This document shows positions 1 through 3,409 of a DNA stretch of 11,789 nucleotides, piece by piece. Below the pieces are notes generated by a model. That model did no database searches. It was not told where the DNA came from and saw nothing but the letters and a program-made list of their open reading frames with translations. Position numbers and translations under genes: made by a program. The first letter of the stretch is position 1, and each line of letters starts with the position of its first letter. Origin of the DNA: Candidatus Dadabacteria bacterium (GTDB taxonomy: Bacteria; Desulfobacterota_D; UBA1144; Nemesobacterales; UBA2774); NCBI GenBank assembly GCA_030632765.1, contig DAOVUC010000022.1:1-11789 (forward strand), written 5' to 3'.

Positions 1-478
1 GAAGCTCCTTATTATTCCTCTCTATATTATCGATCATATGGTTAAAAGCTTGCACTAGAGTATTTATTTCACCGCTAGATTGAACCCCATCTACTCTATA
101 AGAGTAATCACCTTCTCCTACGGATTCCGCGGCTTTAAACAAATTGAAGATAGGCTTAGTTATCACTCTGGGGATAAAGAAGGTAAGAATAATTCCAAAT
201 ACGAGTATTACTCCTATTACGGTAAACTCTGTGATATAGGAATACTTGATCTTCTCAGCTGAGATCTGGAATGCTTCAAGCAGCAGCTCATTGGCAAAGA
301 ACCCTTCGTTTACCTCTTCTTTATCCGTTATGATCTTAGACAACGTAGTATAACGACCTTTAATATTCTCAGCCGCTTTATCAAGGTTATATATGCTGTA
401 CACGGAGAATCCGCTTATAAGAAGCATAAGAAGGAACATCAAAGCATATCCTAGTGTTATCTGTTTACTTAGATTCAA
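1..478 (-). CDS. membrane sensor/signal-transduction protein, N-terminal part with HAMP linker (partial)
   Basis: Read on the minus strand from a TTG start, this gives 159 residues and runs off the left edge. Residues about 7-30 are a first membrane segment (ITLGYALMFLLMLLISG). Residues 31-82 form a short charged extracytoplasmic part, and about 83-103 a second membrane segment ending in FFIP. Residues 103-155 match a HAMP linker: Pro109, LFKAAESVGEGDYSYRV, then SSGEINTLVQAFNHM. This layout is typical of sensor histidine kinases, chemoreceptors and HAMP-cyclases; the output domain is outside the window, so the class cannot be told. The start is chosen because an in-frame TAA lies directly before the TTG and no ATG occurs before residue 14, which is inside the membrane segment. 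A weak AGGTG lies upstream. It is divergent from the lipoprotein gene at 667. The family call is firm at the HAMP level only. Confidence 0.8.
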   Translation of the reverse strand, partial: MNLSKQITLGYALMFLLMLLISGFSVYSIYNLDKAAENIKGRYTTLSKIITDKEEVNEGFFANELLLEAFQISAEKIKYSYITEFTVIGVILVFGIILTFFIPRVITKPIFNLFKAAESVGEGDYSYRVDGVQSSGEINTLVQAFNHMIDNIERNNKEL

Positions 479-666
479 TTACCATGCACCTAACCGAGTG
501 ATTCATATATAAAATTTTACCTGTTATTATTCCCAACTCATATCTATATTTTACAAACGATTAGATAAATTGAATACATTTAGGTAAATTTACTGTTAAT
601 ATTAATTGCGGTATTGAATATATGTCTGCAAAATAGAAGGTAGCCATACCAACAAATATAGAACCT
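479..666. promoter_or_regulatory. divergent intergenic region; candidate extended -10 and palindrome for the lipoprotein gene
   Basis: This 188-bp AT-rich spacer separates the sensor gene (leftward) from the lipoprotein gene (rightward). On the plus strand, TGTTAATAT at 594-602 looks like an extended -10 element (TGn followed by TAATAT), without a convincing -35. It would give a leader of roughly 55 nt. Directly upstream, GTAAATTTAC at 584-593 is a perfect 10-bp palindrome that could be an operator. I saw no clear promoter for the sensor gene. All of this is pattern matching in AT-rich DNA, where chance hits are common. Confidence 0.3.
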
Positions 667-1224
667 ATGAAAGTATATTGCTTAACATTAGCACTATCAG
701 CGATATTCCTTTTCGGATGTATTGCCAGCCCCGGAACAATCAGAGAGTTAACTCAGCGCCAGGATGCCCTTGAATCCAAGATGGACGAGATTTTAGAAGA
801 GCTTCAAGCAAACAATTCTAATATTAACCGTGATGTTGAGAGAATCGAGAACAACCAGATGCTACTTGCGGGAGAAATTGAAAGTATGCAGAAGAAGAGT
901 ATTACCCTTGGCAAAAAAATAGATAACGTTACCAATAGCGATAATAAAAACAATCAGAAAACAGCCTCCGCAAACGGTATCTACACCAAAGCTGAGACCA
1001 GCTATAATGAACGTAAGTATGAAAACGCTATATTGGAATTCCAACAATTAATAGACACTTATCCACAAGACTGGAGGGTTCCAAACGCCTATCTTAAACA
1101 GGGAACAGCCCTTATCAACTTGGGAAGGAAAAAAGAGGCCGCCTTTTTCTTTAACACTCTCATTGATAAATATCCCAACTCCCGAGAGGCCAAAATCGCT
1201 AAGCAAAAACTAAAAACCATTTAA
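667..1224 (+). CDS. CpoB/YbgF-like lipoprotein with coiled coil and TPR domain
   Basis: The 185-aa product starts with a lipoprotein signal peptide: hydrophobic LALSAIFLFG and a lipobox Cys18, so it is probably anchored in the outer or inner membrane facing the periplasm. Residues about 25-85 are a heptad-rich, charged coiled coil. After a polar linker, residues about 102-182 hold tetratricopeptide-like repeats (ENAILEFQQLIDTYP, then KEAAFFFNTLIDKYP). This order is that of the CpoB/YbgF family, which in known bacteria works with Tol-Pal and peptidoglycan synthesis during envelope constriction. No tol or pal genes are visible here, so the Tol role is inference; a BamD-like or generic TPR lipoprotein is the alternative. 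The ATG is the only start after the in-frame stop at 634. It has no good Shine-Dalgarno at the usual distance; an AGAAGG lies about 27 nt upstream. No terminator is seen after it. Confidence 0.8.
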   Translation: MKVYCLTLALSAIFLFGCIASPGTIRELTQRQDALESKMDEILEELQANNSNINRDVERIENNQMLLAGEIESMQKKSITLGKKIDNVTNSDNKNNQKTASANGIYTKAETSYNERKYENAILEFQQLIDTYPQDWRVPNAYLKQGTALINLGRKKEAAFFFNTLIDKYPNSREAKIAKQKLKTI

Positions 1225-1433
1225 TAAATTCTGCCCATCATCAAGTAACTAGCTAAATACTTCTTATCTGCACAGTTCTAATTACTTACCTCGAATTAGA
1301 TCGCTTTATTAAACAACTTAGCTCTATTCCGCAACTATCTCACGTTATCTGAAGTAACGGCCAAACCATTTCCGCACAAGTATTATCCTGCAATTTCAGT
1401 GGGTTACGTATCTTTCAATAAAAATCCTCCGGT
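1225..1433. other. intergenic spacer, mostly without recognisable features
   Basis: About 210 bp follow the lipoprotein gene with no ORF that I can support on either strand and no RNA gene. The one structured spot is CGTTA-N7-TAACG at 1343-1359, a 5-bp interrupted inverted repeat about 75 bp upstream of the sigma-54-type -24 element. That is the right place for an enhancer-binding-protein site, but it is short enough to be chance. Confidence 0.4.
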
Positions 1434-1449
1434 TTGGCACATCCATTGC
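1434..1449 (+). promoter_or_regulatory. sigma-54 (RpoN) -24/-12 promoter before the cupin gene
   Basis: TTGGCACATCCATTGC fits the sigma-54 consensus TGGCAC-N5-TTGC without a mismatch in the core. The -24 GG (1436-1437) and the -12 GC (1448-1449) are separated by exactly 10 bp. The start of transcription would fall near 1461, giving a leader of about 28 nt that carries the Shine-Dalgarno AGGAGGT at 1474-1480. Sigma-54 promoters need an ATP-dependent enhancer-binding protein; no such gene is in the window. A sigma-70 reading (TTATAT at 1451-1456) is possible but lacks a -35. Confidence 0.7.
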
Positions 1450-1488
1450 GTTATATGGATGTAAATCAATTTTAGGAGGTATTAAAAA

Positions 1489-1869
1489 ATGAGTACTGAC
1501 TTTAAGCAAGACCCTATTTTAGTAATGCCCGGGGGCGGGGATGAATTGCTCATGGGCGGAAGCCACTTTCTTCACAAGGTTAAGAGTGAAGATACGAAGG
1601 GTGTATTTTCCGTAATCGAGATCATAAGCCCGCCGGGTAAGGGTGTATCCCTTCATGTCCACGAACAAGAGGACGAGCTCGTTTATCTTCTGGACGGTGA
1701 GATTGAGGTCACACTGGGAGATCAAACTATGACTGCCGTCGCTGGAGTAATCATAGTTGTATGCCAATCGTTTCTGGCAAGGTCCATCCCTTTAAACAGC
1801 TCTTTTCCCGCGCTGCAGAGCTTACCGTCAGGAATTATTTCCCGGTGCATATCGTTAGCGTTCCCCTGA
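1489..1869 (+). pseudogene. truncated cupin-domain protein fused to antisense LPMO sequence
   Basis: The open frame is 126 residues, but only the first ~83 look like protein of common descent. Residues 50-70 carry a complete cupin motif 1, G-X5-HXH-X4-E-X6-G, with His56, His58, Glu63 and Gly70; three of these are the usual metal ligands. Soon after GDQTMTA the expected continuation (a loop leading to the P-x-G-x-x-H of cupin motif 2, with the fourth ligand) is absent. From about base 1745 the frame only reads the reverse strand of an LPMO gene, giving an unrelated tail up to the stop at 1867. The start is secure: ATG with AGGAGGT 8 bases upstream and a sigma-54-type promoter before it. Small cupins of this type are often quercetinase-like or sugar/auxin-binding proteins of unclear substrate. 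The fragment lacks half the barrel and is probably not functional. Confidence 0.75.
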
Positions 1870-2090
1870 TTGACCCCGTTCCAGTCATAAAGAGCCTGCG
1901 TCCCACCTTGCTCCACTGCCGCCTTACAGGCATCTGACTTAGGGTTTTCAGGGTTTTCTAAAAAACAGTTATATATCCTGCTGACAGGAGTCTCCATCGT
2001 ACCGTGACCGAATGCTTCCTGCCCAACGATAATAAAGGACAATACGTAAATAAAAATACTAGAATATAAAAGAAATCTCTTTGTCTTCAT
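1722..2090 (-). pseudogene. truncated AA10 lytic polysaccharide monooxygenase (chitin-binding type), 5' half only
   Basis: The 122-aa frame begins with a Sec-type signal peptide (MKTKRFLLYSSIF..., cleavage after AFG at residue 28). The mature protein would then start with His29-Gly30, the N-terminal histidine that forms one arm of the copper histidine brace in LPMOs. Family AA10 hallmarks follow in order: PVSRIYNC (35-42), Cys55, GGTQALYDWNGV (62-73), IPDGKLCSAG (86-95) and FKGMDLARNDW (99-109). AA10 enzymes cut chitin or cellulose oxidatively. The sequence stops being LPMO-like soon after TMITPA (residue ~117), before the segment that carries the second copper histidine, so the fragment cannot complete the active site. 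The full domain would need roughly 80 or more further residues. The start has a good GGAGG six bases upstream. It converges with the broken cupin gene, which lost its 3' end at the same place. Confidence 0.82.
1725..1758. repeat. 8-bp inverted repeat spanning the cupin/LPMO junction
   Basis: AACTATGA at 1725-1732 is repeated in inverted form as TCATAGTT at 1751-1758, with an 18-bp spacer. The left copy is within cupin coding sequence and the right copy within LPMO coding sequence. The break between the two genes must lie in or next to the spacer, because cupin similarity fades after about 1738 and LPMO similarity is present from about 1741 upward. Shared short sequence at the join fits illegitimate recombination, or a template-switch chimera during amplification or assembly. 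Confidence 0.5.
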
Positions 2091-2148
2091 TTGTATCCTC
2101 CGGTTGTTTTTTAGGATACTAACTCATAAATTTTAAGAACAAAGCACT

Positions 2149-2177
2149 ATTATACTATTTAGGAAAAAATGTGTAAC
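2149..2177 (-). promoter_or_regulatory. sigma-70-type promoter of the LPMO gene
   Basis: On the minus strand a perfect TATAAT (plus-strand 2149-2154) is preceded, after 17 bp, by GTTACA (2172-2177), a 4/6 match to the -35 consensus. Transcription would start near 2142, leaving a leader of about 50 nt with GGAGG before the ATG. The -35 lies inside one copy of a tandem repeat, so the promoter is probably controlled by the protein that binds those repeats. Confidence 0.6.
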
Positions 2178-2207
2178 TGTGCGCAACTATAGTGTAATTG
2201 TGCACAA
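2171..2207. promoter_or_regulatory. tandem 16-bp direct repeat, probable operator of the LPMO gene
   Basis: GTGTAACTGTGCGCAA (2171-2186) and GTGTAATTGTGCACAA (2192-2207) agree at 14 of 16 positions and start 21 bp apart, two helical turns, so two protein dimers could bind on the same face. The second copy contains the perfect palindrome TTGTGCACAA. The copy nearer the gene overlaps the -35 region of the LPMO promoter. The arrangement fits either a repressor or an activator that contacts RNA polymerase. The regulator itself is not in the window. Confidence 0.6.
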
Positions 2208-2252: not shown

Positions 2253-3347
2253 TTACAGTTTTGAGCTCATACTTTTAAGCACTTCGTTGGTTTCTGTAAC
2301 TAAGGCATTAATAAGTTCTTGCGCTGAGCTTTTTCGTGACATCGCTGACCCCTGTCCTGCCCAGAGAGATATAAAATCCGCATTTCCCTTATCCTTAGAA
2401 GCGTTTCTGAGTAATCTTGTAAGACTATTTTGAATCGGATAGTTAGGAACTTCATTCTCAAGTGGGGACATCTCATCAATAAAGCGGTTTTTTATACCAC
2501 GAGCGTATTTGCCGCTGAATGTTCTGGTCAACAAAGTACTTGTATCCTTTGAATTTTGAAGAGAATCAAGCCATGGCTTTGATACAGCTGCCTCTATACA
2601 TGAAAGAAATGCGGTCCCCATCTGTACTGCAGACGCACCAAGCGCAAGAGAAGCAGCAATACCGCGGCCATCCATTATACCCCCTGAGGCGATCACAGGA
2701 ATTTGCGCCTCATCTACAATCTGCGGCACTAAAGCTAACCCTCCTATCATTGGAGTGCCCTCTGTTGATCCGAAGGTGCCTCTGTGGCCTCCCGCCTCAC
2801 TGCCTTGAGCAACTACGGCGCTACACCCTGCTTCCGCAAGAGCCCGAGCCTCACCAACACAAGTAGCGGTCCCGATGACAGTTATATTTTTCTCATGTAC
2901 CCGATCAACGATATTTTTTCCCGGCACTCCGAACGTAAAGCTGAAAACCTGCACATCGTTATCAAGTAAAACATTGATCTGTTCTTCAAAAGTAAATTCG
3001 GCTTCAAGAGTCACTTCAGGCAATTCAACGCCAAGTTCTCTTGAGAATTTCTCAAGCTGCTTTAAAACCTTCTCTGAGATAACTAAAGAGCTTATTTCCT
3101 CAGGCATGAAGAGATTGACCGAAAAGGGCTTATCGGTAAGCTCCTTCACTTTATGAATCTCTGAATCAATCTGCTCGGGCGATAGATACCCCGCTCCTAT
3201 TGAGCCAAGGGCTCCGGTATTCGACACGGCAGCCACCAGCTCAGGAGTGCTCGGCCCCCCGGCCATAGGAGCCTGAATTATAGGATGTTCTATTCCTAGC
3301 TTCTCGAGTAGTCCCCTCACCTGTTCCGGCCAGAATCCACTTTGCAT
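2253..3347 (-). CDS. nitronate monooxygenase family flavoprotein (2-nitropropane dioxygenase type)
   Basis: The product is an FMN-dependent TIM-barrel enzyme of the class I nitronate monooxygenase type. In this family such enzymes oxidise toxic nitronates (for example propionate-3-nitronate) to carbonyl compounds and nitrite; some relatives act as enoyl-ACP reductase-like enzymes, so substrate is not certain. Family signatures (numbered from the chosen start) are QAPMAGG (25-31), VNLFMP near the N-terminal third, SFTFG (136-140), AQGSEAGGHRGTF with candidate catalytic His188, ASGGIMDGRG, and QMGTAFL for FMN phosphate binding. No signal peptide is seen, so it is cytosolic. I chose the second ATG (3347, 364 aa) because AGGAG sits five bases before it; an in-frame ATG at 3374 would add nine residues and has a weaker AGGAAA. 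The stop is at 2253. It is transcribed divergently from the efflux operon and points toward the LPMO promoter region. Confidence 0.9.
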   Translation of the reverse strand: MQSGFWPEQVRGLLEKLGIEHPIIQAPMAGGPSTPELVAAVSNTGALGSIGAGYLSPEQIDSEIHKVKELTDKPFSVNLFMPEEISSLVISEKVLKQLEKFSRELGVELPEVTLEAEFTFEEQINVLLDNDVQVFSFTFGVPGKNIVDRVHEKNITVIGTATCVGEARALAEAGCSAVVAQGSEAGGHRGTFGSTEGTPMIGGLALVPQIVDEAQIPVIASGGIMDGRGIAASLALGASAVQMGTAFLSCIEAAVSKPWLDSLQNSKDTSTLLTRTFSGKYARGIKNRFIDEMSPLENEVPNYPIQNSLTRLLRNASKDKGNADFISLWAGQGSAMSRKSSAQELINALVTETNEVLKSMSSKL

Positions 3348-3409
3348 ATTAACTCCTATAGATTGAATAATCATAATAAACTTTCCTAACCTTACAAGAA
3401 AAAAAACTA

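Follow-up and report, generated by a model that had tools for sequence, protein, structure and literature searches.

Probable single deletion behind the truncation of a cupin gene and a convergent AA10 LPMO gene in Candidatus Dadabacteria

In AA10 lytic polysaccharide monooxygenases (LPMOs), the histidine that becomes N-terminal after signal cleavage forms the first part of the histidine brace. The LPMOs of relatives carry the second copper histidine in a TAPH motif. Microhomology-bounded deletion with pseudogene formation is a known kind of bacterial gene erosion. The locus described here stands close to all three of its nearest counterparts, with its own distinctions. With AA10 LPMOs that carry a GbpA_2 domain (G004, P0165) it shares the start, the signal peptide and residues 29–114 including the first copper histidine, but it lacks the second catalytic half, the second histidine and GbpA_2, and its residues 115–122 are made by a junction. 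With single-domain Cupin_2 proteins of 151–157 aa (G002, G003) it shares the promoter element, the ribosome-binding site and residues 1–87, but motif 2 and the C-terminal part are replaced by 39 residues read antisense from an LPMO gene. With microhomology-bounded deletions it shares colinear flanks, a missing block, open remnants and probably a short word common to both sides of the junction, and it differs solely in hitting two convergent genes at once. It is highly probable, in our judgement, that a single deletion, probably bounded by microhomology, joined codon 87 of the cupin gene to codon 114 of the LPMO gene and left two young pseudogenes. The junction is not mentioned in any title or abstract opening among the papers listed in literature searches, including the one paper listed for Dadabacteria and LPMO (PMC9765126).

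Two open frames, each with half a domain

The window, that is, the whole stretch of DNA analysed (11,789 nucleotides), is the entire contig C154 of an assembly of 1,826,191 bases in 292 contigs that is 83.6% complete. Both frames are present as an earlier reading made from the sequence alone had described them, with intact starts and ribosome-binding sites (Table 1). Beyond the nitronate monooxygenase (NMO) gene, the right flank presumably represents an RND efflux operon.

Table 1. Features of the window around the junction.
Feature	Position	Strand	Remarks
Left flank gene, TPR lipoprotein-like	667..1224	+	Syntenic in G001, G002, G003, G004 and G006
Sigma-54 -24/-12 type element	1435..1449	+	TGGCACATCCATTGC; perfect pattern match, starts 54 bp before the cupin start
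Cupin ribosome-binding site	1474..1479	+	AGGAGG, read from the sequence
Cupin frame	1489-1869	+	126 aa; overlaps the LPMO frame tail to tail
Cupin, native part	1489..1749	+	Codons 1-87; cupin motif 1 HVHEQEDELVYLLDG; relatives' alignments
Cupin, tail made by the junction	1750..1869	+	Codons 88-126 and stop; LPMO gene read antisense
LPMO, tail made by the junction	1722..1748	-	Codons 115-122 and stop; cupin gene read antisense
Deletion junction (probable)	1744..1751		GGAGTAAT; 8-bp overlap of both similarities; pairwise alignments, blastn boundaries
AA10 LPMO frame	1722-2090	-	122 aa; overlaps the cupin frame tail to tail
LPMO, native part	1749..2090	-	Codons 1-114; signal peptide and N-terminal half, first copper histidine at residue 29
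LPMO ribosome-binding site	2097..2101	-	GGAGG, read from the sequence
Pair of similar 15-bp repeats	2171..2206		GTGTAACTGTGCGCA and GTGTAATTGTGCACA, 21 bp apart, upstream of the LPMO start
Right flank gene, NMO family	2253..3374	-	Found in 7/7 genus genomes

Pfam Cupin_2 matches residues 48–91 of the cupin frame with 35.6 bits (cut-off 27.2), covering profile positions 6–48 of 70 only, whereas positions 6–69 are covered in the G002 cupin. LPMO_10 matches residues 29–118 of the LPMO frame at profile positions 1–90 of 183 only, against 1–183 in all three relatives scanned. The latter match starts at histidine 29 (EAFG-HGTM), where the signal peptide is putatively cleaved. The second copper histidine, residue 132 in the intact homologue P0165 and thus 18 positions beyond the last native residue 114, is absent from the window, as is cupin motif 2 (PRGIPHGFVN in G002 and G003), leaving the barrel incomplete. 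Pfam and the alignments agree with the sequence-only reading that a good cupin motif 1 and a good AA10 N-terminal half are each deprived of their second motif or histidine. The tails are accounted for by the other gene: the opposite strand of relatives' LPMO genes matches the tail region of the cupin frame. Proline 116 of the LPMO frame belongs to the junction-made tail yet agrees with the family because of a shared GG.

A block missing between colinear flanks

In G002 and G003, two genomes of the same genus, the flanks have the order and orientation seen in the window, with no rearrangement. Window positions 1–1751, and those from 1744 or 1749 onward, match a single contig in order in each genome, and residues 1–91 of the cupin frame are 85–87% identical to the cupins found there. 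The two broken points lie 5.2 kb apart in G002 and 4.3 kb apart in G003. The block common to both comprises the motif-2 half of the cupin gene, a gene for a YHS-like protein (below the Pfam cut-off in G002), a sigma-54 activator gene and the rest of the LPMO gene, which encodes the second histidine, a GbpA_2 domain and two CBM_2 modules. The activator has PAS and GAF domains in the G003 copy, which was the one scanned; the G002 copy is shorter. The G002 block additionally contains genes for a DUF4142 protein and a cupredoxin, together with a frame of 118 aa that no Pfam family matches.

These comparisons bear directly on the sequence-only reading, which had attributed both losses to one event, namely a deletion across the ends of convergent neighbours, an inversion or a chimeric assembly. 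A cupin gene convergent with a full AA10 gene is indeed found in G002 and G003. The two genes are convergent there but not neighbours, since 4.3–5.2 kb of other genes lie between them. The colinear flanks, with a block missing between the same two points, support one event and single out deletion among the three options. An inversion with one breakpoint at the junction, its 3′ halves now elsewhere in the genome, would likewise break both genes at one point. It is unneeded, however, since both flanks are ordered and oriented as in G002 and G003, and searches of the 84%-complete assembly did not recover the missing halves at another place; we regard it as extremely unlikely.

The deletion would have removed roughly 4–5 kb, an estimate taken from G002 and G003. 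The block in the window's own ancestor may have differed from theirs, because the convergent pair occupies the locus in only two of the six other genus genomes and other arrangements occur: in G004 the TPR and LPMO genes stand side by side and the cupin gene is missing there; in G010, of the same family, the TPR gene, a sigma-54 activator gene and the LPMO gene follow in order with the cupin gene on another contig; and in G009 nearly 3 kb without match to the labelled genes lie between TPR and LPMO.

The boundaries of similarity converge on the junction. DNA similarity from the left stops at 1751 in L064, L065 and L067, and that from the right begins between 1742 and 1756 (L069 at 1742, L064 and L066 at 1744, L065 at 1749, L068 at 1756). 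The blastn boundaries and the pairwise alignments meet within 8 bp (1744–1751), confirming that family similarity of both frames ends at one point. A search of 57 genomes of the phylum returned the cupin side at 1642–1751 (G002 twice, G003) and the LPMO side from 1744 (G004, G002). A match across the junction was obtained in the own genome and in none of the 56 others, a search with one genome per species, in which a segregating allele would be missed.

On the cupin side, the junction word reads GGAGTAAT in all three aligned relatives; on the LPMO side it reads GGAGCAAT in G002 and G004 and GGGGCAAT in G003. The parental endpoints, as represented by relatives and not by the window's own parent, have 7 of 8 bp of the word in common in G002 and 6 of 8 in G003. 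The LPMO position corresponding to 1748 is C in all three relatives, and if the parent also had C there, the exactly shared word is AAT (3 bp) only. The deletion probably arose at an imperfect microhomology of 8 bp, GGAGYAAT, through slippage or end-joining. It removed the 3′ half of each gene and presumably also the genes found between them in G002 and G003. Two young pseudogenes with open frames and intact starts would result: the cupin lacks motif 2, and the secreted LPMO fragment lacks both the second copper histidine and the GbpA_2 domain.

A second haplotype and the search for the lost halves

The junction is represented by more than one assembled sequence. The cluster of the 126-aa frame (P0001) has two member sequences and five contigs, the window contig being the longest, and these five may include the window and repeated deposits and may not all be independent. 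P0106, encoded on a contig of 1739 bases, has 122 aa, is 96% identical to the LPMO frame of the window and ends in the identical tail TPATAVIV. The differences fall at residues 11, 17, 20, 21 and 23, all in the signal peptide, while residues 29–122 are identical; the cupin side of this contig would follow from the junction-made tail. All five variants are shared with P0160 (406 aa), P0161 (545 aa), P0170 (469 aa) and P0171 (406 aa), a pattern that may reflect haplotype recombination or ancestral states that all of them share. At least two haplotypes carry the deletion allele, and near kin have intact ones. Full-length homologues including the tails would, for the sequence-only reading, have counted against it. 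P0106 fits that wording but represents another copy of this truncated gene, and the intact 408-aa homologues P0165, P0166, P0167 and P0169 do not have the junction-made tail.

These data also weigh on a chimera of assembly or amplification, in which fragments of one intact locus were misjoined and both genes are really whole. The assembly is fragmented, as its contig number and completeness show, and amplification chimeras also display short direct microhomology. Against this, the same tail on two haplotypes, which differ at five residues, is not what an accident of a single assembly would give, and the 126-aa frame represents five contigs. The shared word of 8 bp with one or two mismatches is too short for a k-mer misjoin, which usually involves a k of 21 or more, and searches of the 83.6%-complete genome turned up no intact version of the lost parts. 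These sequence comparisons make a one-off chimeric assembly a very unlikely origin of the junction. A double truncation in an assembled genome can thus be largely resolved without reads, with synteny pointing to the event and the recurrence of the tail on another haplotype making an artefact very unlikely.

Searching the own genome for the two 3′ halves, as the sequence-only reading had proposed, recovered neither: the LPMO middle was not found by protein search, nor the cupin tail by DNA search, in the 83.6%-complete assembly. The YHS protein was not found there either, in a search without a positive control. That these parts are missing from an assembly only 84% complete is weak evidence of their loss. 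The only match resembling the LPMO tail lies on contig C89, in the CBM_2 part of a gene for a GH5 cellulase; it was ruled out as the missing tail because the cellulase has two CBM_2 modules of its own. These modules (L083 1711–3657 for the cellulase) share 63–68% identity with the CBM_2 part in the LPMO of G002; the genome retains this cellulase though its LPMO is broken.

Age of the break, constraint and regulation

Among the best 120 of 813 listed LPMO matches, the 408-aa proteins P0165 and P0166 are 96.6% identical, and P0167 and P0169 95.7% identical, to residues 1–116 of the window LPMO. P0165 and P0166 are recorded as lytic polysaccharide monooxygenase of Candidatus Dadabacteria bacterium. 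Intact LPMOs about 96% identical to the remnant indicate that the window lineage parted recently from intact alleles, and the loss looks recent by this sequence comparison. These nearest intact forms have no CBM_2, in contrast to the 548-aa forms of G002 and G003; the G004 LPMO has 406 aa. The dN/dS of the cupin remnant against three whole cupins is 0.046–0.063, near the 0.016–0.054 among those three, consistent with a recent break. For the LPMO, synonymous sites were saturated in 13 of 15 pairs, leaving two estimates: 0.210 for the window and G004 and 0.078 between the intact genes of G002 and G003, pairs whose divergences differ much. The higher value could reflect slight relaxation in the remnant.

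Comparison of the window with G004 (L066) gave a synonymous difference (pS) of 0.39 for the LPMO remnant (1749–2090) and 0.64 for each of two flanking genes. The low value relative to the flanks suggests that LPMO alleles have been exchanged between lineages.

A retained function would mean that the shortened frames are not pseudogenes, the secreted LPMO half with its first histidine, or the shortened cupin, being kept for what it still does. Both frames are open, the cupin remnant is without codon-level decay, and the two known truncated haplotypes agree throughout residues 29–122, with 5 differences among the 28 residues of the signal peptide. Intact LPMOs are equally patterned, however: P0165 and P0160 differ at 8 of 28 signal-peptide residues and 4 of 86 in the mature part. 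A variable signal peptide with a steady mature part is therefore explained by recent loss. The LPMO dN/dS of 0.210 also exceeds the intact 0.078, the copper site and fold core are incomplete, and the G001 genome has lost nearly everything at this locus; we consider a retained function very unlikely. There is an equally small chance that the truncated LPMO is a circulating, recombining allele under selection, whose 94-residue secreted product, with one copper histidine, still binds copper or substrate; such an allele would explain the unchanged mature part on two signal-peptide haplotypes.

In 60 genomes searched as relatives, an LPMO match was found in nine (the own genome and the G001 relic counted) and a match to the 126-aa frame in 20, a number that includes antisense readings of LPMO genes as well as cupins. 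Among the seven genus genomes the LPMO is whole in G002, G003 and G004, halved in the window and reduced to a relic in G001, and the search detected none in G005 and G006; the G005 contig ends inside a flank gene, so the locus is unreadable there. Whole cupin genes occur in G003 and, at two loci, in G002, and the window has half of one; there was no match in G001, G005 or G006, and the sole G004 match is its own LPMO read antisense. In the sister genome G001, the sequence corresponding to window 1228, just past the TPR stop, continues directly with that of window 2014 in the LPMO signal peptide, leaving a signal-peptide relic that ends in a stop (L084 11191–11274). This deletion is larger and contains the site of the window's deletion, which it may have followed or arisen independently of. 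Bootstrap support for grouping the window with G001 is 98% for the joined TPR and NMO proteins and 99% for NMO by itself; TPR alone does not group them. The genus thus shows LPMO loss at different stages (intact, halved, signal-peptide relic, not found), and the window locus is gene erosion of the ordinary kind caught early.

The stretch of about 830 bp that separates TPR from NMO in G006 (L092 1190–2019) has no similarity to the window; relatives carry cupin and LPMO at this place.

The promoter claimed earlier for the cupin gene proved to be a perfect sigma-54 type element in a scan with the -24/-12 consensus pattern. The window, like L064 and L065, contains no second perfect copy, and the same scan detected no perfect copy in L066 and L084. 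Of seven other cupins, the three from the genus (two of G002, one of G003) are preceded by a perfect element and those of G010 and G013 by one with a single mismatch; before those of G021 and G011, the scan gave no match even when two mismatches were allowed. The missing block has a sigma-54 activator gene in both G002 and G003, and the second G002 cupin locus has one as well; this linkage makes the lost activator the likely one of the cupin promoter. The deletion probably also disconnected the cupin remnant from its regulation.

Another sigma-54 activator persists in the own genome on contig C118 and could act in trans. It was rejected as the missing regulator itself: the gene encodes 645 aa and matches the lost regulator over only 563 bases of DNA, at 67%. 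The set of cupin, YHS, DUF4142, cupredoxin and activator genes looks like a small sigma-54 regulon. Upstream of the LPMO gene, the pair of 15-bp repeats represents a putative operator; similar pairs precede the LPMO genes of G002 and G004 and the relic of G001, and weaker ones those of G003 and G010.
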